A model generated the notes under the pieces. The model saw only the letters and a list, made by a program, of their open reading frames with translations, ran no database searches and was not told where the DNA came from. The translations under genes and the position numbers were made by a program. A DNA stretch of 40,224 nt from Desulfobacterales bacterium S7086C20 (lineage in GTDB: Bacteria > Desulfobacterota > Desulfobacteria > Desulfobacterales > C00003060): assembly GCA_001751075.1 (NCBI GenBank), contig MAVP01000004.1:1-40224 (forward strand), written 5' to 3'. How positions within the stretch are numbered: position 1 is the stretch's first letter; the number at the start of each line of letters is the position of its first letter. Of the stretch, positions 13,358-38,305 are shown piece after piece.

Positions 13358-16300
13358 ATGAAAAGCATAGCCTCTGAAGATACCTGCTCAACACGAACCG
13401 CCCATATCACTGGCTTGAAATCAAAGGCCCTCCAAGTCAATTTAGAAGAAACCGATCAGGCCGTAACCATTGACCCTAAGTATCTACCCCTAGTAGAGGT
13501 GGTCGAAACCCTTCCAGGACTTGTTCAACAAACAGAGGGGCTTTTGTGTGAATTGAACCATCCGTTCAAGAATTGGACTTATATCATCCAAGAGATGCGC
13601 AATTATGCCCTAAGAAATTTCTCCGTATACAATGAGCAACCAAAAGGCTGTCAAGTAATAGAGATTATCTTGAATGAATGGCTCAATGCGCTCAGGAGCT
13701 CATCAGACCAGTCAGTCCACACCATGGCACTGGACAACATTGTCTATTATGTTGAAAAAATTGTAGTTGACGGAAGAACTCATCTCAAAGAGTCTATGCC
13801 GGTTTTGTCGCGTGTTTTTGAAGATCTGGCTAAGTTGCCACAAGAGTTTTTCTTCCTTCTGTCAAGTGGATACTACCAGGTAAAACGGATCGGTGAAGCC
13901 GCAGTGCAATTGAGAGAAGATGAATTTGATTTCCTTCGGTTCAACCCCTTGTTTCGAAAGACACTTAAAGTATCCTATCAATACTGGCTCTCGCAGGAAG
14001 ACCCGTCAAAATGGTTTGCCTCAGATACCAAAGAATCTCACCAAGAGCTAGTACATGAAGAGATCTTTAAAGAGATATCTCACGCATCACTTCGCAGGTC
14101 TATGGAAAAGCTAAAACGAATTACGCAAAAGGGATCTCTAAAAGACGAATTGTATGAACTTCTAACACTTCCTGATTATATCGACATTGTAGAATCTTAC
14201 AAGGAATTGCCATACGGGATTGAACAGCTTGAAACCGATACCCGCAGAATGGGACTCATCAAGACTCTTAAAAGCCTGCTTAAGATCATAGAAATAAGAG
14301 GACTTTCCTCAATACACGAAAATGCACTCGGAAGACTTAACCATTGCCTTGCCGGGATAATTCACGTTAAACATGATGAAAAGGCTGAAACCCTCCTTCG
14401 AAGAACCTTTGAAGCCCTGAAACAAAGTATGCAAAAGTTCCCGGAGGCAGCTCTTCATGCCTTGGAAAACATAGGCAAAGAGATATTCAAGAGCAATGAC
14501 AGTGACATGGTCGAGCTCTTTATTCGGCACACGGTTGACCTGGGATTTCAATGCCCGGATATAAAGGGAACTACAACCCAATGGAAAGTACAGGTTAACC
14601 CCGCCCATCTTACAAACATCAAGGTTTGGCTTCACCTGATTGAAAATAATCCCAAGTGGAGCAAAAAACTAATCTCCGCCTTGATCACCAATCTTAAGCT
14701 TGCAGGGCTTTATATCAGAGATACCGATCTTTTCCAAAAGGAGATCAGCCTGTTCTTAAACAGCCCTGTCGCCCCTGTTTATAACCTAGCCAAACAACTT
14801 GCAAAGCTTTTCCCCGTCTATTTCAACGAGATAAATGCTGAGGGCGAGCTAAGAGATGTTTCTACGGAACTTGATGAACTTTTAAAGCGCCAAGACAAGC
14901 TCATCCACTTCCTTCGCAAACAGTCCCATGTGGAAAGCAACAACCTCCTCATAGGTTTTGCTCTGGCAATCGTAGATTTTTGGTTCACCAGAGACAAGAG
15001 CATCCTTACTCACTATGTACCTTCGGAGATTCTAGAACAAATTGATGACACCGGCATACATATTGACGGTGTTCACAAAGTTATAAAACAACTCTTCCGG
15101 GAAGTCGGCATTGACAATGCCCGCCATATCCTCGATTTTGACATGGTGGTGATTAAAAATCACCTATCTGCAGTCCCGGACAAGCTGGAATTTAATAAGC
15201 AACGCGTAATCCTCTTGGTCCGTTTTTTAAAGCTCCTTGATCAAAAGTACGATCTCATCCATTTCAAAACAAACGACTTGTTGGATAGGGCCGCCCACAA
15301 GGAATTACCGAAGACAGAATATCTCAAAAAGGCTCTGCAAAGTACTGACTTGATCACCCGGTTGCAAGGAATCCTTGACTATCTGAAATTGCTCAAACAG
15401 ATCATTTTATCGTCCGAACAGTTTACGATTTCCGAAGATATCTACCATAAGCGTCATATTGCCGCCGACATTCCTTCTATGTACGGAACGTATCAAGAAC
15501 GGAAATTTGACGCCCTAGGCTTTTCTTTCCGGTTAGAAAATCTGACCAATGTCTTATTTGAAAAGCTCTTGGTATCTATCAAACTGACATTTTTAACTCG
15601 AACCACCTTCTCTCAAATCGCCGACTGCATGCACCTGCTTGTCCAGGCCATGGAACTCGACGGAATAGTCGTAACTCCCCTAAAACGTTGCCTGAATCTC
15701 CTTAATCATGCGATTGAATTAAGGCGCTTTTCCTTTACCCAGTATTTAGACATTTTCCGGGAGTTTTCCCGAGCCGAGCAACAAATTCTCAAAACGCATT
15801 ATACAAGTATCTACAAGGAGCACTTGGGCCCCATTATTCACCAATTGGGCGCCAAGAGAATTATGGGAAGATATTTTGTCAAAACCGAAACAGAAATCTC
15901 TGAAGAAATTGTGGGCAAGGTTTCTGAAACTTTTTTTCGAGATATAGTAGCAAACACCTTTGGTTTTCAGTATCTGGATAACTTTATAAGCAAGGTCATT
16001 CACACGCTTTCCCGAGAATCTGAGGAGCTTAGTGGAAACAACCTAGATCTTTTGCTAAGTTACGACCCCAACAGAACCTTATCGGGAATCCAAAACCCCA
16101 TACCTGCCATAGAAGATCCAATCACCCTTGGCAGCAAAGGTTACAATCTGATCAAACTCGTTGCCCTGAAAATGCCGGTGCCTAGTGGGTTTATCATCAC
16201 GACTGAAGTCTTCAGGTGTTTCAACGCTATTCGGGCGTTTGAAAGGGCAAACGAAGACCTGAGGGGAAAGATCCTTCTTCAAATCAAAGAGATTGAAAGA

Positions 16301-17587
16301 CTCAGTAACAGGCATTTTGGCAACCCTGATAATCCCCTGCTTTTATCTGTCCGGAGCGGATCTACGGTCTCTATGCCGGGGATGATGAATACTTTCCTCA
16401 ATGTTGGACTTAACGAAACAATTGTGGAAGGTCTCATAAAAAGGACAGGCAATCCTTGGTTCGCTTGGGATAATTACCGACGTTTCCTCCAATCGTGGGG
16501 TATGTCTTACGGAATGGAGCGCGATGTCTTTGACGCCATTATCAATGATCACAAGATCAAACATGGCATAGGACAAAAAGGAGAATTCACCCCTGAACAA
16601 ATGCACAAAGTCGCACTAGCTTACAGGGAAACATTACGTGATGCACGTGTTGCCATGACGGACGATCCCGTTGAGCAACTATTTCAGGCCATACAACGGG
16701 TAATCTATTCGTGGGATTCACAAACAGCCACCACATACCGGGATATCATGGGGATATCGAATGACTGGGGCACTGCTGTCATTGTCCAAAACATGGTCTA
16801 TGGCAACTTAAACGATGAAGCCGGTTCGGGCGTTGTCTTCACACACAACCCTCACGCATCAGTTGACAAGGTGACACTATGGGGTGATTATACAATGGGG
16901 AACCAAGGTGAAGACGTAGTTTCCGGGCTGGTCAGAACAGACTCTATCTCATTGGAACAAACAGCGGCTCTGGGAAGAGAACAAGATTGCCCGCTGGAAA
17001 AGGCCCTCCCAGAGATCTTTAATGCCCTGAGGCAAGCAGCCAAGGTCCTGATCTATGAAAACGGGTGGAGTGCTCAAGAAATAGAATTTACCTTCGAAGG
17101 CCCAACTGCTGAAAAGCTTTACCTTTTGCAGTCTCGAGACATGGTGGTAAGCCACGGAAAGCGATTTCCTGTCTTTATCCCTTCTGCTAAGCTTAAAGAA
17201 GCCTTCCTGACTAGAGGTGTCGGCGTAGGCGGGGGCGCTCTGAGTGGAAGGATCGTTTTTTCACACAACGACATCAATTTCTTCCGCAACAAAGAACCGG
17301 ATACACCTATCATCCTGATTCGCTTTGATACCGTCCCTGATGACATACGAGAGATATCTGCCGCAGACGGGCTTTTGACCAGCAGGGGCGGCGCTACGTC
17401 TCATGCATCTATTGTAGCAAATCAATTGGAAAAGACCTGTGTCGTCGGATGTTCCAAATTAATGGTTTACGAAAAGGCGGGCTATGGGATTATCAGTGGA
17501 CACACCGTCAAGTGTGGAGACTTTTTAAGTATAGATGGTCAGAATGGTTTTGTTTACCAGGGACAACATAACACAACTATTAAATAA
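13358..17587 (+). CDS. PPDK-like dikinase (ATP-grasp plus phosphohistidine domain) with about 915-residue N-terminal extension and no PEP/pyruvate barrel
   Basis: A 1409-residue protein. From about residue 920 it matches the ATP-binding domain of pyruvate phosphate dikinase/PEP synthase: LGSKGYNL (G925-K927), SVRSGSTVSMPGMMNT with R999, and an end at YLLQSRDM. A swivelling phosphohistidine domain follows, with H1349 in TSRGGATSHASIVA. It then stops at about 1405, so the C-terminal TIM barrel that binds PEP or pyruvate is missing. The first 915 or so residues are mostly helical-looking, with no motif I know and no signal or membrane segment. Chemistry by family: ATP phosphorylates the histidine, which passes phosphate to an acceptor. 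Here the acceptor would have to be bound by the N-terminal part or by a partner. Rifampin phosphotransferase and glucan-water dikinase show that the acceptor domain can be swapped. No strong ribosome site precedes the ATG. A GAPDH relative follows after 31 bases. Confidence 0.8.
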   Translation: MKSIASEDTCSTRTAHITGLKSKALQVNLEETDQAVTIDPKYLPLVEVVETLPGLVQQTEGLLCELNHPFKNWTYIIQEMRNYALRNFSVYNEQPKGCQVIEIILNEWLNALRSSSDQSVHTMALDNIVYYVEKIVVDGRTHLKESMPVLSRVFEDLAKLPQEFFFLLSSGYYQVKRIGEAAVQLREDEFDFLRFNPLFRKTLKVSYQYWLSQEDPSKWFASDTKESHQELVHEEIFKEISHASLRRSMEKLKRITQKGSLKDELYELLTLPDYIDIVESYKELPYGIEQLETDTRRMGLIKTLKSLLKIIEIRGLSSIHENALGRLNHCLAGIIHVKHDEKAETLLRRTFEALKQSMQKFPEAALHALENIGKEIFKSNDSDMVELFIRHTVDLGFQCPDIKGTTTQWKVQVNPAHLTNIKVWLHLIENNPKWSKKLISALITNLKLAGLYIRDTDLFQKEISLFLNSPVAPVYNLAKQLAKLFPVYFNEINAEGELRDVSTELDELLKRQDKLIHFLRKQSHVESNNLLIGFALAIVDFWFTRDKSILTHYVPSEILEQIDDTGIHIDGVHKVIKQLFREVGIDNARHILDFDMVVIKNHLSAVPDKLEFNKQRVILLVRFLKLLDQKYDLIHFKTNDLLDRAAHKELPKTEYLKKALQSTDLITRLQGILDYLKLLKQIILSSEQFTISEDIYHKRHIAADIPSMYGTYQERKFDALGFSFRLENLTNVLFEKLLVSIKLTFLTRTTFSQIADCMHLLVQAMELDGIVVTPLKRCLNLLNHAIELRRFSFTQYLDIFREFSRAEQQILKTHYTSIYKEHLGPIIHQLGAKRIMGRYFVKTETEISEEIVGKVSETFFRDIVANTFGFQYLDNFISKVIHTLSRESEELSGNNLDLLLSYDPNRTLSGIQNPIPAIEDPITLGSKGYNLIKLVALKMPVPSGFIITTEVFRCFNAIRAFERANEDLRGKILLQIKEIERLSNRHFGNPDNPLLLSVRSGSTVSMPGMMNTFLNVGLNETIVEGLIKRTGNPWFAWDNYRRFLQSWGMSYGMERDVFDAIINDHKIKHGIGQKGEFTPEQMHKVALAYRETLRDARVAMTDDPVEQLFQAIQRVIYSWDSQTATTYRDIMGISNDWGTAVIVQNMVYGNLNDEAGSGVVFTHNPHASVDKVTLWGDYTMGNQGEDVVSGLVRTDSISLEQTAALGREQDCPLEKALPEIFNALRQAAKVLIYENGWSAQEIEFTFEGPTAEKLYLLQSRDMVVSHGKRFPVFIPSAKLKEAFLTRGVGVGGGALSGRIVFSHNDINFFRNKEPDTPIILIRFDTVPDDIREISAADGLLTSRGGATSHASIVANQLEKTCVVGCSKLMVYEKAGYGIISGHTVKCGDFLSIDGQNGFVYQGQHNTTIK

Positions 17588-17618: not shown

Positions 17619-18860
17619 ATGGGAAAAGGCACACTTGGGATCAATGGCTTGGGGCGTATCGGAAAGCTTTCCTTATGGCAACATATAGGGAGAAAGGATT
17701 TCTCTGAAATTGTCATAAACATCGGGCGAACAGTCGGGTCAGGCCTTGAGGATGTGGCTACGTTTATTGAAAGAGATTCCTCATATGGCACTATGCACAA
17801 TTATATAAAAGGTTACAAGGCAGGCCGTATGATCACCAACATTGATGAAAAGTCGGGCTCCATGTTAATCGACGGCATCAAGGTTACAATTCTGTGCGAG
17901 GCCCGCAATCCGAAAGACATTCCCTGGAAATCTCACGGAGTCGACTTGGTAGTCGAGTCAACAGGCCAGTTTCTTGACCCTACCCTGCCCCCGGACGCAC
18001 CGAAAGGATCCGTGCGCGGCCATTTAGCCGCCGGGGCAAAGAAGGTAGTCGTATCGGCGCCTTTTAAGATAATAGACAAAGCAAGCCCCATGCCTAAAGA
18101 TGCCATTACCACAGTATTGGGCATCAACGAAGACGATTATGACTCGGGCAAACATGACATAATATCGAATGCCTCATGTACCACAAACTGCCTGGCCCAC
18201 ATGATAAAGCCGCTATCAGATTATTTCGGTTTTGAGCGGATACTTACGGCATCCATCGCAACCGTGCATGCCGCCACGGGCTCTCAGTTGGTCCTTGATA
18301 GAGCCCCCAAGGCGGGAGCCGGAGACCTTCGGCGAAATCGAAGTGTTTTCAACAACATTATTTTGACAACTACAGGGGCAGCCAAGGCTTTGCTTTTGGT
18401 TATGCCCAAGATGAAAAAAATAGGGTTCATTGCCGAATCCGTCAGAATACCAGCCACTACCGGCTCACTTATCATTCTGGTCATTGATGTTCAGGATGCA
18501 CCCGGCTCAGAACCCATAAAACGCGAATTGATCAATAAAGTCTATAACGATGCCGCTCAAAGAGACAAGAAGGGATATCTCCAGTACTCAAACGAACAGA
18601 ATGTCTCCTCGGACATCGTTGGTCACCCCCTGGGAACAGCCATTATAGAAGGCAAAGAGACCCATACACGCACCGCAACAATATCTTTTGACCTAAAACG
18701 CTTGCCGGGCTATTCGCCGGAGGTCGAGGCATGTCTTGGCCGTAGCGTTGTCGACATTCCCATAACAAAGATAGTCGTGTACGGGTGGTACGATAACGAA
18801 ATGGGCGGATACACTCACATGCTCACGGAACGCACAGTATCGATAGCATCCAGGCTATAG
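17619..18860 (+). CDS. Glyceraldehyde-3-phosphate dehydrogenase family protein, long variant
   Basis: A 413-residue relative of type I GAPDH (usually about 335). It keeps the NAD-binding start LGINGLGRIGKLSL, the catalytic cysteine C187 in SNASCTTNC, the general base H217 in ATVHAATGSQ, and WYDNEMGGYTHML near the end. Oddities: the usual Asp after the second strand (NDLTD-type) is replaced by NIGRTVGSG, so coenzyme choice may differ. C187 to H217 is 3 residues longer than the normal spacing. There are insertions before the cysteine and in the C-terminal half. AAGGAGG lies eight bases before the ATG. It sits right after the dikinase gene and is probably co-transcribed. It could be glycolytic, gluconeogenic, or a specialised paralogue. 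Confidence 0.88.
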   Translation: MGKGTLGINGLGRIGKLSLWQHIGRKDFSEIVINIGRTVGSGLEDVATFIERDSSYGTMHNYIKGYKAGRMITNIDEKSGSMLIDGIKVTILCEARNPKDIPWKSHGVDLVVESTGQFLDPTLPPDAPKGSVRGHLAAGAKKVVVSAPFKIIDKASPMPKDAITTVLGINEDDYDSGKHDIISNASCTTNCLAHMIKPLSDYFGFERILTASIATVHAATGSQLVLDRAPKAGAGDLRRNRSVFNNIILTTTGAAKALLLVMPKMKKIGFIAESVRIPATTGSLIILVIDVQDAPGSEPIKRELINKVYNDAAQRDKKGYLQYSNEQNVSSDIVGHPLGTAIIEGKETHTRTATISFDLKRLPGYSPEVEACLGRSVVDIPITKIVVYGWYDNEMGGYTHMLTERTVSIASRL

Positions 18861-18947: not shown

Positions 18948-21227
18948 ATGGAACATTACGATCACATCAAGAACAAGTTGCTTGATATCAACAAAGAGAT
19001 TCGCCGCACCATCCAAACTGCCCTTTCCTCTGACGGTCTAAGCGCTCAATCCCTCGAAACATGGCACTCAACAACAGAGCGCATCCAAAGGCAACTTACT
19101 GAAGAGACCATTCGGATAGCAGTAGTGGGCTCTATCAAGTCCGGCAAGAGCACGTTAACCAATTTTCTGTTTGGCGGAGACTATGTAAAAAGAGGGGCCG
19201 GAGTTGTAACCTCTATTATAACAAAGATTCGTCCCGGCAACGATATAAAGGCCAAGCTCGAATTTAAAACATGGGGCGATGTCAATGCCGAGATGAATCA
19301 AGCGCTTGTCCTTTTCTCATCCACAGAATCGAATATGAACGGAGAAGACTTTGACATCAATCGTGAACAAGACCGCCTTCGGTTAAAGCACGACCTGTCA
19401 AAGCTCGATGCGAAACAACTCATCTCTGATGATGCGCGTGATCCAAACAGTGTCCTCTTGATTGAATATCTGAAGGGATATGAGCGGGCAAAGGCCTTTG
19501 TCTCCTTTGAACGGGAAACTACATTGCTTGAGTCAGGGGAATTTGACAAACAAAAAGAATTTGTAAGCGATGAGTCACTTGCAGTTTATTTAAGGGACGT
19601 GTCATTAACCCTTAAGGCCCCGGATGGTTTTGGAGAAAATCTTGAGATTGCAGACTGCCAGGGAAGTGACTCACCGAATCCTTTACATCTTGCAATGATA
19701 CAAGACTACCTCATTCAAACCCATCTGATAATCTACGCTTTGAGTAGTAGGACTGGATTGCGACAGGCAGATATTAAGTTTCTTACCCTGATGAAAAAGA
19801 TGGGGCTTGCCAAAAATATTATTTTTGTTTTTAATTGCGATTTCACCGAACATGAGAACCTATCGGATCTTAAGCAACTTCTTGCCAGGACAAAAAATGA
19901 ACTAAACATGGTCGTAGAATCTTCCCGTGTTTTTGCCTTCTCAGCCCTTTACAACTTGTTCGGCAAGCTTGACTCTCAAGACAGTGGACCTCAAGAACTT
20001 TCTCGCAAAGACCGGCTTCGCTTAGAGCAGTGGTGTGAAGAAACAGATATGGTCGCCTTTTCAGATCAAGAAACAACCAGGTTTTTAGACGATGTCATTC
20101 AGAAGGTATCTGTAGGCCAGTTTAACTTGCTCCTGGAAGCGAATGTGGAGCGATTATCAAACATTGCCTCTGGGATGAAAGAATGGATCCGGATCAGCAG
20201 GGATTTATTGCAAAAGACCGCCGGAGAGGTTCAAGAGGCATTTGCAAAAATGGATAAAAAGCGTAAAGCCTCAAACCAGATAGTAGCAACAATAAAGGAC
20301 ACCTTAGACGGTACAACACGCAAGCTAAAGCGTTATCTTGGAACGGAGGTAGACCGCTGTTTTGATGTAAAATACGGAGAGATTGCACAAGAGATCATTC
20401 GATTTATTAATGCTTACAACATCTCTGTACGAGACTATAAGAATGACCTTCAAAACTCCGGCTTCCTACTTACTTTATATCACATCTTTCAGACCCTGCA
20501 ACAAGCCACCAATCGTTTCATAGCCGAACAAATCAACCCGAAGATCGTTCAATTCATCGGGCAACAAGAAGAAGAGATAAAAGAGATGTTCCAGCAGGTA
20601 AGTGGTCCGTACGGTCTAATGATTCAAGATGCTGTTGATCAGCACCACCAGACCATGGAAGAACTCGGTATTGATGTGGCAAAACGACCCTTCAAGGAAA
20701 TTGGCTGCCCTGATATCCCTTCCGTAAAAAGTGATATCCGCTTGAGTATGCCACACCTGGCAAGCACTATGCAATATTCGACACGTATTAAGACAGAAGC
20801 TATTTTAAAGCTGGGATTATATAATACATTAAAAGGCATCAAGAAACTATTCAGAAGGCCTGCTGCAGAACAATTGCATAGTGCAATGCGTTCACTCGAA
20901 CATAGTGTGCGCCGTATAAAAGAGCAGATGGGGGAATCGATAGCAGAGCATTTCACGGATTATAAGGAGAATCTGAAGTTCCAATATGTCTTTACGTTAG
21001 TCGATGCCATGTCGAGCAGGCTATACGAAAACCTTACAGATCAGATAAAGGCCTTTACTGGTGATCTGTCCAACATGAAAGGCCTCTTTGAAAATGAAAA
21101 GAAGACCAAGGGGGAACTGTCTGAAGAACTCTTGTCTATGGAGAGATCTCTCGATAGTGTCATGGCGAGGATAAAAGAGATACAAGAAGTGGCGGAAGAA
21201 CGGAGAATTGGAGGATATAATGGCTAA
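18948..21227 (+). CDS. Dynamin-family large GTPase (bacterial dynamin-like protein)
   Basis: A 759-residue cytosolic protein. Residues about 55-350 form a large G domain with the P-loop GSIKSGKST (61-69), a G2 threonine in GVVTSIIT, G3 DCQGSD (D236, in place of DxPG), and G4 NCD (296-298, in place of N/TKxD). The remaining 400 residues are charged and helix-rich, with heptad-like stretches and a coiled-coil-like end (about 700-755), as in stalk domains. There is no obvious transmembrane paddle. Bacterial dynamin-like proteins bind and remodel membranes. Its last eight bases overlap the ParA gene, so the two are translationally coupled and probably work together. It has a weak ribosome site (AGGT) before the ATG. 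Confidence 0.78.
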   Translation: MEHYDHIKNKLLDINKEIRRTIQTALSSDGLSAQSLETWHSTTERIQRQLTEETIRIAVVGSIKSGKSTLTNFLFGGDYVKRGAGVVTSIITKIRPGNDIKAKLEFKTWGDVNAEMNQALVLFSSTESNMNGEDFDINREQDRLRLKHDLSKLDAKQLISDDARDPNSVLLIEYLKGYERAKAFVSFERETTLLESGEFDKQKEFVSDESLAVYLRDVSLTLKAPDGFGENLEIADCQGSDSPNPLHLAMIQDYLIQTHLIIYALSSRTGLRQADIKFLTLMKKMGLAKNIIFVFNCDFTEHENLSDLKQLLARTKNELNMVVESSRVFAFSALYNLFGKLDSQDSGPQELSRKDRLRLEQWCEETDMVAFSDQETTRFLDDVIQKVSVGQFNLLLEANVERLSNIASGMKEWIRISRDLLQKTAGEVQEAFAKMDKKRKASNQIVATIKDTLDGTTRKLKRYLGTEVDRCFDVKYGEIAQEIIRFINAYNISVRDYKNDLQNSGFLLTLYHIFQTLQQATNRFIAEQINPKIVQFIGQQEEEIKEMFQQVSGPYGLMIQDAVDQHHQTMEELGIDVAKRPFKEIGCPDIPSVKSDIRLSMPHLASTMQYSTRIKTEAILKLGLYNTLKGIKKLFRRPAAEQLHSAMRSLEHSVRRIKEQMGESIAEHFTDYKENLKFQYVFTLVDAMSSRLYENLTDQIKAFTGDLSNMKGLFENEKKTKGELSEELLSMERSLDSVMARIKEIQEVAEERRIGGYNG

Positions 21228-22005
21228 GCAAAGGACTCGAATCGTTTCAGTGGTCAATGAAAAGGGAGGGGTTGGAAAGACTGTAACCGTTTTGAACCTG
21301 GCAGCAGCTCTTTCGTTAAGGGGAAAGAATATTTTGGTCGTTGATATGGATCCTCAGCTTAATACCACCAAGGGCTTGGGGTTTACCTCCGACGAAAACG
21401 ATCTCTCAGTTTATGACGTTATAAAACCAGACAACCCTGTTTCAGCTGATTCCGTCATTTCAAATACGTCATGGGAACATCTTGATCTTCTCCCTTCTCA
21501 TATAGATCTGTCCGGTATTGAGATAGAACTGGCAAATGAGCTGGGTCGAGAAAATAGACTTAAAGACGCTCTAAAACCTTTTTCGGGACAATACGATTTT
21601 GTCCTACTCGACACACCACCTAGTCTTTCTTTGCTTACAGTTAATGTCCTTGCCTTCGCACGTGAAATCCTCATCCCCTGCCAGACACATCCCTATGCAT
21701 ATAGTGCCTTGGACGAACTTCTTGAGACTATCTCGATTATCAAAGAAGAGATCAATCCGAAGATAGAAGTCATGGGAATTGTCGCTACTTTTTTTGATCA
21801 GCGAACAAGGGTCTCAAAAAAGATTCTCGAAGACCTACGTTCAGACATACGTTTCAAACAGAAGGTCTTTAACACTGTCATTCGAATCAACACCACAATC
21901 GCCGAAAGTGCTTACTACAACAGGCCCGTAGTCTTTTTCAGACGTTCCAGCACAGGGGCAACAGATTATTTGGCCTTGGCAGACGAGATCTTGGGAGAGA
22001 TCTAA
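21220..22005 (+). CDS. ParA/Soj-type ATPase coupled to the dynamin-like GTPase
   Basis: A 261-residue ParA with the deviant Walker A KGGVGKT (K15-T21, signature lysine K15), Walker A' VVDMDPQLNTT, and Walker B FVLLDTPPS. Such ATPases form ATP-bound dimers on the nucleoid or membrane and position cargo. I chose the ATG at 21220, not an in-frame start at 21208, because GGAGG lies at ideal spacing. There is no ParB gene or parS-like repeat nearby. The partner gene is instead the overlapping dynamin-like GTPase. The TAA stop is followed at once by GGGCTCG, the same junction seen at the two 364-bp elements. Confidence 0.9.
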   Translation: MAKQRTRIVSVVNEKGGVGKTVTVLNLAAALSLRGKNILVVDMDPQLNTTKGLGFTSDENDLSVYDVIKPDNPVSADSVISNTSWEHLDLLPSHIDLSGIEIELANELGRENRLKDALKPFSGQYDFVLLDTPPSLSLLTVNVLAFAREILIPCQTHPYAYSALDELLETISIIKEEINPKIEVMGIVATFFDQRTRVSKKILEDLRSDIRFKQKVFNTVIRINTTIAESAYYNRPVVFFRRSSTGATDYLALADEILGEI

Positions 22006-32179: not shown

Positions 32180-33730
32180 CTATAGGGGGCCTTCTTTTTT
32201 CTCCAGCTCGCTTTCTGATAGGGCGGTGCGGGCCGTATCCAGGAGCCGTTTACGGTCCTCGTCTCCAAGCTTCTCACCGGCTTCGATCCGCGAACAGATC
32301 TCGGGAAGCACTGTAGTTGCCGTATTGCGAATGGTCGCCTCTGCAGCGGCCACCTCGTCCGGAGCGATGCCATCCAATAGACCCTCTGAGCCAGCCAGCA
32401 GGACAGCCATTTGCTCTGCCACCGGAACGGGGGCATACTGGGGTTGTTTGAGAATCTCCCGCACCCGACGTCCATGTTCCAGAGTCCTTCTGGTTTCCTC
32501 ATCAAGGCGCGTTCCAAAACGGGCGAAGGTCTCCAGTTCTTCAAATTGGCTGTACGAAAGGCGCAGGTGGCCGGCCACGGCCCGGTAGGCGGGAAGTTGG
32601 GCCTTTCCACCTACACGGGATACGGATTTGCCCACATCCACGGCAGGCAGCACCCCTTTCTGAAAGAGGTCGGGTGACAAATAGATCTGACCGTCGGTGA
32701 TGGAGATGATATTGGTCGGGATATAGGCAGACAGATTCTGAGCTTCTGTTTCAACGATAGGCATGGCGCTCAGGGAACCGCCTCCCTGTTCTTGTCTGAG
32801 ACGGGTGGAGCGTTCCAGGAGCCTGGAATGGATATAAAACACATCACCGGGAAAGGCCTCCCGTCCGGGGGGGCGTCGCAAGAGCAAAGACAGCTCCCGG
32901 TAGGCCTGAGCATGGCGGGTCAAATCGTCGTATATGATGAGCACATCGCGGCCCTGTTCCATGAAATACTCTGCCATGGAGGTGGCCGCATAAGGCGCCA
33001 CGAATTGCAGACCTGGTGGATCATCTCCTTCCGCTACCACGACAATGGAGTAGTCCATGGCCCCATGCCGACGGAGGTTCTCCGCCAGTTTGGCCACTGA
33101 AGAGCTTCGCTGCCCGATGGCGCAATAGATGCAAAGTACGCCCGTGTCTCGCTGATTCAGGATGGTATCCAGGGCAATGGCTGTTTTTCCGGTTTGCCGG
33201 TCACCAAGGATGAGCTCCCGTTGTCCCCGCCCGATGGGGATCAAGGCATCGATGACCTTAATGCCCGTCTGCAGGGGAACAACGACCGGGGCCCGATCCA
33301 TGATTTCAGGGGCAGGCCGTTCCACCGGAAGACGTGTGGCGGCCCGAATAGGACCGAGATTGTCCAGGGGGCGGGCCAGAGGATCGACCATCCGTCCCAC
33401 AAGGCCTTCGCCTACGGGCACCTCCATGACCTTGCCGGTCCTTCGTACTTCTGATCCCGCCTTCAGCGAAGGACTGTCGCCCAGCAGGACCACGCCCACC
33501 TCGGTGGGGTCCAAATTGAAGACCATGCCAAACCCACCATCGGTAAACCGGACGAGCTCTTCCGATCTTACGGTAGGCAACCCGTCCACCCGGGCAATGC
33601 CCTGGCCCACAAAGGTCACCCGGCCTACTTCTTGTCCCTTTAATTCGACCAGGTGCCCTGCCAACACGTCGTCCAGGGTCTTGAAGGTGTCGTTCAAAAA
33701 GGATTCTAAGAAGGGGGCCTTAGGTTTCAC
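32180..33730 (-). CDS. atpA: N-ATPase alpha subunit
   Basis: A 516-residue alpha subunit of the catalytic hexamer, binding nucleotide at the non-catalytic sites. P-loop GDRQTGKT (176-183), the arginine-finger region [10 protein letters not shown], and the C-terminal helical domain are present. It starts with GTG at 33730, whose bases overlap the atpF stop as GTGA; the nearby ATG is out of frame and closes quickly. It is placed between atpF and atpG as in other N-ATPase operons. Confidence 0.96.
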
Positions 33731-34596
33731 TCATGGTCTCCTGGGATAGTATCTCCTGGGACGGTCTCTGGGGGCGTCTGGAGAATCTCCGGGGGGTCTT
33801 CCTGCTCTTTGGGTGGGGGTTGTATCTCCTGTCGAACCCGCCCTGCCTCAAAGGCCCGGGAAAAATCGGTTTCCAGACTTTCCAAATACGCTCCGAGGCT
33901 CCAGGCTATCTTGTAGCCATGTATAACAAGTTCTATTCCGCAAACAACGTCCGGCGTCGTTTCCAGGGTCAGATCTACCGGGCCGGTCTTCAGGGACTCC
34001 AGAAAACCCGAAATGCCCTGAACCGCATCCTGTGGCAGGTCAAAGGCGGTCCGCAACACGGCCTTGCCTTGCGATCGGTCCATGGCCTGTCTGAGTTTTT
34101 CGCCTTCGTCTTCCTTCAAGTTCCGAAGACGTGCTTCGAACACCCGGGCAATATGGATTTCCACGTCCATGTCGGCCATTTCTTGCAGTGCCTGCCGTGC
34201 CAGGGCATAAGCATGCTCACCCACACGGTGTTGCAGGTCCCGTAAAAAGGCGTCCTTTTCTCGATCAAGGGCCTCGTACCAGTTGGCGCGAACGCCCTCA
34301 ACCTCTGTTCGCACCCCATGCACCATGGTCTTTCGCATCTCCTCCACGTCATGCTTCATGGCAGAAAGGAGCTCGGCACGCTGCCCGTCCAGTTGCCTGT
34401 TCTTCTCCTCGTAGCGGGCCTGTTCCTGCTCGGCGGCATCCCTGTGCATTTGGGCCTCTTTGAGGCGAGAGGCGATCTTTTGCTCCCGCTCGTCCATGGC
34501 CTTGATGATAGGTCCATAGAGAAAACGCTTGAGGAGGTAGACCAGGACGAGAAAGTTGAGCACCTGGGCGCCAACGGTGAACCAGTCAATGAGCAT
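33727..34596 (-). CDS. atpF: N-ATPase b subunit, extended with a delta-like C-terminal part
   Basis: A 289-residue protein, far longer than the usual b subunit of about 160. The first 30 residues hold one membrane helix ([19 protein letters not shown]), followed by a long charged coiled coil to about 150 that forms the peripheral stalk. Residues about 165-245 resemble the C-terminal part of the delta/OSCP subunit ([36 protein letters not shown]). A proline- and acid-rich tail follows. No separate atpH is present, which fits N-ATPases, where the b protein takes over this role. It has a GGAGGATAGCGGCC ribosome site before its ATG. Confidence 0.93.
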
Positions 34597-34601
34597 GGCC
34601 G

Positions 34602-34880
34602 CTATCCTCCAGCCTTTGAGATCAAGTGGTCCCAGAAGGGATTGGCAAAGATCAGAATCATGGCTACGACAAAGGCATAGATGGCCGTTGACTCCACCAT
34701 GGCCAGGCCCACAAAAAGGGTCCTGGTAATGGTGTTGGCCTTATCTGGCTGTTGCGCAATGGAACTCAACGCCTGGGCCAGGGCACGGCCTTCCCCAAGG
34801 GCTGGGCCAATGGAACCAATGCTTACAGCCAGGCCTGCCGTGATAATGGATGCTGTTCCTATCAAACCCATGTTATCCAT
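34602..34880 (-). CDS. atpE: N-ATPase c subunit (Na+-type, two carboxylates)
   Basis: A 92-residue hairpin of two membrane helices that forms the rotor ring. The first helix carries GEGRA with E30. The second carries VEST with E63, S64 and T65. E63-S64-T65 is the Na+-binding signature of sodium-type c subunits. The extra carboxylate E30, where classical Na+ rings have glutamine, is the two-carboxylate motif known from Fusobacterium nucleatum. Ion choice (Na+ or H+) still cannot be settled from sequence. The start at ATG 34880 follows AAGGAGA; a longer frame to 34979 lies inside atpB. It overlaps the end of atpB by eight bases. Confidence 0.95.
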   Translation of the reverse strand: MDNMGLIGTASIITAGLAVSIGSIGPALGEGRALAQALSSIAQQPDKANTITRTLFVGLAMVESTAIYAFVVAMILIFANPFWDHLISKAGG

Positions 34881-35592
34881 GTGAGCTGTCTCCTTTCTCA
34901 ACGTCATAGGTGGGTGGTGTTTCTTCCCGTTTGCGAACACGGGCTGCTGCTGCGATATAGACCATAGCCAGAATGGCAAATATGTAGGCCTGGATCAATC
35001 CGGTGAGCAACCCGAGAGCTTGCATGACCACCGGGAATATCAAGGGTGTGACGGCAAGAAGAATGGCTGCGATCATCGATCCGCTCATGACATTGCCAAA
35101 AAGCCGCACAGCCAGTGCCAGGGTCCGGGACAGCTCCCCCATAATGTTGAAAGGGAGCATGAATACGGATGGCTTGATGTAGTCGGTAAAATAGGCAAGC
35201 CCTCTGCGGGTGATACCATACAAAGGCACGGCCACAAAAACACAGGCCGCCAGAGCGACCGTTGTGGAAAGAGATCCCGTAGGCGGTTCATAGCCGGGAA
35301 TAACACCCAGAAGGTTACAGGTGGCTACAAAAAGAAACAACGACCCGATAAAGGGCAGAAAGGGGTCGGGGTCTTGCCGGCTTACGTCGCGAATCTGGTC
35401 TCTCATGCCGGCAACTAGCACTTCAAGAAGATTTTGCCAACGGGACAGCCGGGTCCCAGTGGAAAGCTTGCGGGTCACCAACCACGACCCAACGACCATG
35501 AGCGCCATGACGGCCCAGGTGAAAACAATGGTTGCGTTGAGGGCCACAGGCCCCCATTGTACCAGCACAACGGCGTCAGGGCTAATTCGCAA
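34873..35592 (-). CDS. atpB: N-ATPase a subunit
   Basis: A 239-residue integral membrane subunit with about five helices. It forms the ion half-channels and contains the essential arginine R163 in LALAVRLFGNVMSG, equivalent to the invariant channel arginine. It starts with TTG at 35592, chosen because AAAGGAGG lies seven bases upstream. It overlaps the end of atpR by 11 bases and the start of atpE by eight. The C-terminus is charged (RVRKREETPPTYDVEKGD). Confidence 0.95.
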   Translation of the reverse strand: MRISPDAVVLVQWGPVALNATIVFTWAVMALMVVGSWLVTRKLSTGTRLSRWQNLLEVLVAGMRDQIRDVSRQDPDPFLPFIGSLFLFVATCNLLGVIPGYEPPTGSLSTTVALAACVFVAVPLYGITRRGLAYFTDYIKPSVFMLPFNIMGELSRTLALAVRLFGNVMSGSMIAAILLAVTPLIFPVVMQALGLLTGLIQAYIFAILAMVYIAAAARVRKREETPPTYDVEKGDSSHG

Positions 35593-35905
35593 GAGAACCT
35601 CCTTTGTTCGTTTCAGAACCTGAAAGAAGACGACCGGGCCCCCACCAACGGACGGCCACGGTGCGAAAAACCAAAAAGCCCGCCAGGGCGATCAACAATC
35701 GTTCCCATCGGCCCCCCATGACCACGTAGAAACCCAACAGGGTTGCGGCCGTGCGAACCACGAAGCTGGCAAAGCTCAACAGCCCAGGTCGCTCGGCCGA
35801 GAGAATACGACGTACGGTGAGCCAGAGGCCGCCGAAGTAGAACAATCCCAGCACGATGCCGGCGCCAAAAACAAGGAACAGCCACAACAGGTCATGGGCG
35901 GTCAT
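35582..35905 (-). CDS. atpR: N-ATPase subunit AtpR
   Basis: A 107-residue hydrophobic protein with three membrane segments (about 5-30, 43-62 and 68-85) and arginines in the helices (LTVRRIL, FVVRTAATLLGFY). The family is specific to N-ATPase operons and is thought to help assemble the c-ring or membrane sector. It has GAAGAGGAA before the ATG at 35905 and overlaps both neighbours (atpQ by 14 bases, atpB by 11). Confidence 0.9.
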   Translation of the reverse strand: MTAHDLLWLFLVFGAGIVLGLFYFGGLWLTVRRILSAERPGLLSFASFVVRTAATLLGFYVVMGGRWERLLIALAGFLVFRTVAVRWWGPGRLLSGSETNKGGSLAN

Positions 35906-36228
35906 TATCGTGTTCCTCTTCCAAGGTCTTTTGCTCGCGGTTCAACCAGAACCACGCGTTCAGGCAGCCCAGCATAACACCGATGATGAGAAGCATGAGG
36001 GTCCATGAATAGCGACTGGGCAACTTCAGGTCGATCCATACCCCCAAGGCCACACCGAGAACCGTGGGAATAGCCACGGACCAGCCGACCAGACCGAACA
36101 TGCCCAGGCCGAACCAGACTGTCTGATCCTTTTGTCGACGGGCCCGCATCTTGCGGGATTCTTTGATTCCCACCTTCTTTTGGAGGTCATGGCGCAAGTC
36201 CTTTTGCGGCGTCTCGGCTGGACCCGGG

Positions 36229-36236
<8 letters not shown>
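35892..36236 (-). CDS. atpQ: N-ATPase subunit AtpQ (AtpI-like)
   Basis: A 114-residue protein with a charged N-terminus and two membrane segments (about 40-70 and 77-98), of the ATPase gene 1/AtpI type. The start at ATG 36236 overlaps the atpC stop by eight bases, as atpE overlaps atpB; the upstream open frame lies inside atpC. A role in membrane-sector assembly or Mg2+ supply has been suggested for the family. The gene pair atpQR is the diagnostic mark of the N-ATPase operon. Confidence 0.9.

Positions 36237-38305
<2,069 letters not shown>

Follow-up and report, generated by a model that had tools for sequence, protein, structure and literature searches.

The PPDK/RPH dikinase superfamily has been described as large and little explored (PMC4844700). 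Catalysis by pyruvate, phosphate dikinase (PPDK) starts with the step E + ATP + Pi <=> E-His-P + AMP + PPi (PMC5556012), where Pi is inorganic phosphate and PPi is pyrophosphate. Rifampin phosphotransferase (RPH) and the two-component phenol-type dikinases PpsAB, CreHI and HpeHI join an ATP-grasp domain and a swivelling phosphohistidine domain to an acceptor domain for substrates other than phosphoenolpyruvate (PEP) (PMC4844700, PMC12167813). Here we describe a dikinase-superfamily variant whose proposed acceptor part is new, as is its obligate partner, a paralogue of glyceraldehyde-3-phosphate dehydrogenase (GAPDH). Dikinase and partner are encoded in a 40,224-nucleotide stretch of Desulfobacterales bacterium S7086C20 (assembly GCA_001751075.1, contig MAVP01000004.1, positions 1 to 40,224 of the forward strand), the whole of which we call the window. 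The features concerned are as follows.

13358 to 17587, + strand: dikinase gene, 1409 residues, ATG start (open reading frame; Pfam PPDK_N and PEP-utilizers; architecture recurring in dozens of loci and genomes)
13358 to 16102, + strand: residues 1-915, a new all-alpha solenoid, the proposed acceptor-binding part (no family match; AlphaFold2; Foldseek)
14597 to 14938, + strand: residues 414-527, the most conserved solenoid segment (invariant in 38-39 homologues)
15428 to 15508, + strand: residues 691-717, conserved beta hairpin E.IY.KRHIA..IPS.YG.Y.E.KF (main strand pair of the solenoid in AlphaFold2)
16127 to 17143, + strand: PPDK-type ATP-grasp domain, residues 924-1262 (PF01326; 1kbl alignment; Foldseek; invariant catalytic residues)
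17306 to 17548, + strand: phosphohistidine swivel domain, residues 1317-1397, with H1349 at codon 17402-17404 (PF00391; GG.TSHA invariant)
17619 to 18860, + strand: GAPDH paralogue, 413 residues, obligate partner gene (PF00044 and PF02800; GAPDH-I profile; adjacency; co-occurrence)

A dikinase core behind an unrelated solenoid

A Pfam scan of the dikinase returned only PPDK_N (residues 924-1202, 3.7e-32) and PEP-utilizers (residues 1317-1397, 4.7e-17). Residues 924-1406 align to residues 18-511 of C. symbiosum PPDK (1kbl; 3.7e-82), and Foldseek, run on a model of residues 240-1409, matched the core to the same structure (E 5e-28; 31% identity over the core) and the swivel domain to 2fm4 (TM score 0.83 to target). 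In the 1kbl alignment the catalytic residues of PPDK correspond to K927, R999, E1241/E1243, Q1258, R1260 and H1349, of which K927, R999, E1243, Q1258 and R1260 presumably have the functional roles of their PPDK equivalents K22, R92, E323, Q335 and R337. All seven residues are identical in 39 of 39 homologues and the GG.TSHA motif around H1349 is invariant, in agreement with a preliminary description, made from the window's sequence alone, that considered the catalytic arginine and the H1349 motifs intact; no loss of catalytic residues was seen among the intact homologues. Since the catalytic set is so strictly kept, the ATP-to-histidine half should be functional, and its PPDK-like ATP-grasp sequence suggests that it uses Pi and releases PPi. 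Because dozens of homologues keep the full-length arrangement, the gene and its architecture are real, far beyond chance.

The dikinase shares with PPDK (TIGR01828; 1kbl) the ATP-grasp and phosphohistidine domains, their order and their catalytic residues, whereas it stops after the histidine domain, with no Pfam match to the C-terminal PEP/pyruvate barrel, and carries the 915-residue N-terminal solenoid instead; its TIGR01828 score is 383.9 bits, below the cut-off of 843.45. The acceptor domain of PPDK and PpsA is indeed missing, as had been proposed, given the lack of a Pfam barrel match and the all-helical N-terminal part. An analogy with RPH, also drawn at the outset, stands for the ATP-grasp and swivel domains, which the dikinase has in common with RPH and the phenol-type enzymes and to which the RPH structures 5hv1-5hv3 give a weak and limited Foldseek match (E ~2e-4). 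It does not stand for domain order: RPH runs ATP-grasp, acceptor, histidine, whereas the dikinase runs solenoid, ATP-grasp, histidine, and the two acceptor parts are unrelated. Moreover, the ATP-grasp domain is PPDK-like here and PEP-synthase-like in RPH and the phenol-type dikinases, the RPH family NF041857 scores 28.5 bits (vs 999), and the dikinase has no rifampin-binding domain between ATP-grasp and histidine.

Alpha-glucan, water dikinase (GWD) likewise combines a large N-terminal part with histidine and ATP-grasp domains. In contrast to GWD, the dikinase has no carbohydrate-binding parts, does not match the GWD phosphohistidine family PF22973 in the Pfam scan, and has its histidine and ATP-grasp domains in the opposite order; kinship with GWD was rejected, as the solenoid motifs did not turn up in the searched parts of GWD-like loci in the same genome. 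Two such genes are neighbours there (L093 on contig C3, 1098-4217 and 4198-7677), and in the second of them the GWD phosphohistidine and ATP-grasp domains are preceded by a fused TIM barrel of the xylose-isomerase type (PF01261), an unusual combination. The N-terminal domain of phosphotransferase system (PTS) enzyme I, PEP-utilisers_N (PF05524), has no Pfam match in the dikinase.

The preliminary description had recognised nothing in the N-terminal two thirds, and our searches agree: residues 1-915 have no Pfam, NCBIfam or PDB-sequence match, and residues 1-922 gave no credible match when a 38-row profile was run against PDB sequences or when 38 members were scanned one by one with Pfam. Structure prediction, which it had suggested, gives a helical solenoid. 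The AlphaFold2 model of residues 1-922 (mean pLDDT 83.3) has helices throughout, the solenoid part of the 240-1409 model (mean pLDDT 84.8) is helical, and the models contain a single long hairpin, residues 692-713, with low pLDDT at its tip. Foldseek on the 1-922 model found only generic HEAT/importin solenoids, importins and FANCI among them, with TM scores <0.2, which on these models is a generic fold resemblance carrying no assigned function. A known acceptor domain was rejected, as the profile, Pfam and Foldseek searches together gave no more than these generic solenoids.

The most conserved solenoid segment, residues 414-527, holds H417 and the motifs DTDLFQ and FPVYFNEI.AEG.LR.VST..DE...R.D..IHF.RKQ.HVES. 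A distant dikinase family from the Thermodesulfovibrio phylum (L085-L092, for example L085:4742-9097; 1450-1510 residues) has the same solenoid site; its first ~150 residues differ, its genomes lack the GAPDH paralogue, and no constant neighbour was seen. When five of its members were included (11 sequences in all), >30 solenoid residues, many of them charged and many basic, were unchanged, among others H417, D455, Q460, E491, R499, T503, D506, D513, R520, K521 and H524, K630, Y631, E693, K698, R699, H700, I705, P706, S707, Y712, E714 and K716, and Q795, R861 and D874. That charged residues persist in genomes without the paralogue suggests a putative small-molecule site, and for the same reason, if the two families share a ligand, the GAPDH paralogue is a less likely candidate for it than a small anionic molecule or a protein found universally.

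The GAPDH paralogue and its linkage to the dikinase

A genome scan for the dikinase gave 56 loci, and wherever the contig is long enough nearly all of them match in both halves; the named carriers include Desulfacinum, Desulforhabdus, Desulfoferrobacter, Thermodesulfovibrio, other metagenome-assembled genomes (MAGs) of Desulfobacterota and one Chloroflexi MAG. Within the window's phylum, sampled as 247 genomes at least 90% complete, the gene is found in 75 (~30%), nearly always as a single copy with a frame of ~1400 codons. The Thermodesulfovibrio phylum has the close family in 23 of 197 genomes and the distant family in 8 more, and the phylum of the Chloroflexi bin has the dikinase in 1 of 251. 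The dikinase, an enzyme not described before, is widespread among sulfate-reducing bacteria and anaerobes related to them. A literature search, with subscription journals outside its scope, found no paper describing the pair.

In the window the GAPDH paralogue starts 31 bases downstream of the dikinase. It follows on the same strand in 39 of the 47 loci with room for it, and all eight others carry it elsewhere. The sets of genomes holding the two genes are identical in the window's phylum (75/247) and, counting the close family, in the Thermodesulfovibrio phylum (23/197), even though in about one fifth of the 75 the genes lie on different contigs or far apart. Since the Fisher value for this co-occurrence (2.5e-65) ignores phylogeny, a fairer sign of linkage comes from five mixed families (f45, f50, f51, f89 and f93), each with genomes holding both genes and genomes holding neither. 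Pairwise distances among the dikinases and among the paralogues are correlated (0.94 between the two matrices), but common descent would by itself produce such a value as well. The two genes are adjacent even in the single Chloroflexota bin, a case that MAG binning could explain. The GAPDH paralogue is the obligate partner of the close-family dikinase.

The paralogue, 400-450 residues long across loci, has both the NAD-binding and the catalytic domain (PF00044, PF02800), and scores 321.3 bits against TIGR01534 (GAPDH-I), below the threshold of 367.2. Its own profile draws a clear line between it, with full-length matches at 2e-172 or better, and canonical GAPDH, at 4.5e-52 or weaker. Compared with class-I phosphorylating GAPDH it shares the catalytic Cys/His, the substrate-phosphate residues and WYDNE, whereas it is ~75-120 residues longer, with a longer S-loop and family-specific insertions, and is 32-38% identical to the gapA product of the same operons. 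Because it retains the catalytic pair C187 and H217 together with T220, T252-G253, R276 and WYDNE, it probably works as a phosphorylating dehydrogenase on a substrate like that of GAPDH. In contrast to class-I enzymes, the region of the NAD-site Asp32 is replaced by N-x-G-R with an invariant R37. As NADPH use by GAPDH is influenced by positions 32-35 and by an arginine close to the 2'-phosphate (PMC3728087), NADP(H) would be our guess for the cofactor.

Neighbouring genes, named here from their translations rather than by family searches of each, include gapA, pgk and tpiA as frequent companions on either side of the pair. One operon (L056) reads dikinase, GAPDH paralogue, gapA, pgk, tpiA, secG, and two others (L043, L061) are alike through tpiA; in a fourth (L105) the order is gapA, dikinase, GAPDH paralogue, pgk, tpiA. 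Where the dikinase lies elsewhere, the paralogue adjoins pgk in eight genomes (G070, G107, G136, G184, G193, G224, G263 and G283). Three near-complete genomes (G084, G120, G252) have pgk, and the one GAPDH-I match in each of them must be the paralogue; going by such class-I matches, it may be the only GAPDH of Thermodesulfobacteria-like genomes. Wholesale replacement of canonical GAPDH or phosphoglycerate kinase (PGK) was rejected, as both usually coexist with the pair. The genome of the window itself has no strong PGK match; it has two divergent PGK-domain open reading frames of 287 and 238 bits (L108 on contig C93 and L109 on C22), and gapA and tpiA lie together on C7 with no pgk between them. 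At three loci (L096, L098, L102) the dikinase comes after aroC and a glycogen/starch-synthase-like gene, with gapA between in two. Directly after the GAPDH paralogue the window has a dynamin-family GTPase and then a ParA-type ATPase (18948-22005, + strand), and similar large and ParA-type genes follow the paralogue in close relatives. Farther along (32180-38006, - strand), two ATP-synthase alpha/beta-type subunits (PF00006) share one cluster, possibly an N-type ATPase operon.

Proposed reaction and rival explanations

GAPDH-fold enzymes commonly pair with a carboxylate kinase, as in PGK/GAPDH, ProB/ProA and ArgB/ArgC. A dikinase and a GAPDH variant in gapA/pgk/tpiA operons would fit this logic of kinase and acyl-phosphate reductase, with the dikinase as the activating half. 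We infer a three-part enzyme consisting of the solenoid acceptor part, the ATP-grasp domain and the swivelling phosphohistidine domain. The ATP-grasp domain would bind ATP and, as in PPDK, Pi; H1349 would take the beta-phosphate of ATP, with release of AMP and PPi; the swivel domain would then dock on the solenoid and hand the phosphate on to its acceptor, a small anion bound by conserved residues in the segments 414-527 and 691-727. The leading candidate reaction is 3-PG + ATP + Pi <=> 1,3-BPG + AMP + PPi, where 3-PG is 3-phosphoglycerate and 1,3-BPG is 1,3-bisphosphoglycerate. The GAPDH paralogue would reduce 1,3-BPG, or produce it in reverse, perhaps with NADP(H), and the sequence could run in either direction, as gluconeogenic drive or to recover ATP from AMP and PPi.

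The preliminary description had left the acceptor open among a small molecule, a polymer and a protein. We found nothing in support of a polymer, a protein is considered below, and a small molecule is our leading reading. The survey of distribution and neighbourhood that it recommended found the same architecture to be widespread and added what it had not foreseen, the GAPDH paralogue and the link to gapA, pgk and tpiA; it is through these that the acceptor can be narrowed to the triose-phosphate step. We hold it possible, and the best of our readings, that the acceptor is a small molecule at the 3-PG/1,3-BPG/glyceraldehyde-3-phosphate step. That it is 3-PG itself, which would make the dikinase and its dedicated GAPDH variant an alternative to PGK, is doubtful. 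Several observations weigh against this reading. All 24 module genomes tested have a pgk (the window's genome only the two divergent ones), so that formation of 1,3-BPG does not require the proposed step. Some dikinase copies have in-frame stops or split frames (G120, G252, G357, G361, G380), and one of these genomes (G120) combines a broken-looking dikinase with an intact GAPDH paralogue. Alpha-solenoids are usually protein binders. Finally, in Syntrophobacterales and Thermodesulfobacteria-like genomes the dikinase lies in an rpoN-rapZ context, which could hint at regulation.

The last two points lead to the main rival, regulatory phosphorylation of the GAPDH paralogue: the solenoid would clasp the paralogue (or canonical GAPDH or PGK) and the phosphohistidine would phosphorylate it, so that triose flux is switched by ATP, AMP and PPi. 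The protein-binding type of fold, the perfect co-occurrence with one protein, the family-specific insertions in that protein and the rpoN/ptsN/rapZ neighbourhood of several lineages all speak for such a protein phosphotransferase. However, the distant family keeps the solenoid residues in genomes without the paralogue, and short motifs so rich in invariant charged residues resemble a docking surface less than a site where a ligand binds or catalysis takes place; we regard this explanation as somewhat unlikely. A kinase acting at the triose level on dihydroxyacetone, glyceraldehyde or glycerate, and feeding the GAPDH variant or triose phosphate isomerase, would also suit the gapA, pgk and tpiA neighbourhood, and the known small-molecule dikinases of the superfamily (RPH, HpeHI) do phosphorylate hydroxyl groups. 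Given that no transporter, glycerol or glyceraldehyde genes recur near the dikinase, and that a single-copy, widespread gene is more like central metabolism than a catabolic add-on, we consider it unlikely.

The catalytic half is closest to PPDK, which might point to a PPDK or PEP synthase with an unrelated pyruvate-binding part, but this is improbable: the barrel domain is lacking, PPDK_N genes that match more strongly and have the usual length of PPDK/PpsA exist elsewhere in the window's genome, and the GAPDH paralogue would be left unexplained. Least credible of all, and very improbable, is that the dikinase takes the place of enzyme I in the nitrogen PTS and feeds EIIA/PtsN of the rpoN operon. 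This would account for the placement of the dikinase behind rpoN-hpf-ptsN-rapZ-EIIA in Syntrophobacterales and for the presence of a dikinase in 14 of the 17 sampled genomes that lack enzyme I, but many loci, including that of the window, have no PTS genes nearby, and replacement of enzyme I was rejected, as the two coexist in 61 of 75 dikinase genomes. We also rejected a strict tie to sulfate reduction through AMP and PPi: the marker aprA is enriched but not required, as it is present in 53 and absent from 22 of the 75 module genomes and present in 46 genomes without the module.

Possible meaning for three-carbon sugar metabolism

A dikinase whose putative acceptor part is unrelated, and of which about 30% of the sampled genomes of a major anaerobic phylum carry one copy, is tied without exception to a second GAPDH, a pairing that suggests a step in the metabolism of three-carbon sugars not recognised so far. 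If the dikinase acts at the 3-PG/1,3-BPG step, an AMP/PPi-linked enzyme would be added to one of metabolism's best known reactions, and an alternative to PGK would be available to sulfate reducers, syntrophs and Thermodesulfovibrio-like bacteria, organisms in which AMP and PPi should be plentiful. If it is instead a regulator, it would be a new means of controlling that same step. Either way, two genes known by generic domains alone gain a testable joint function.

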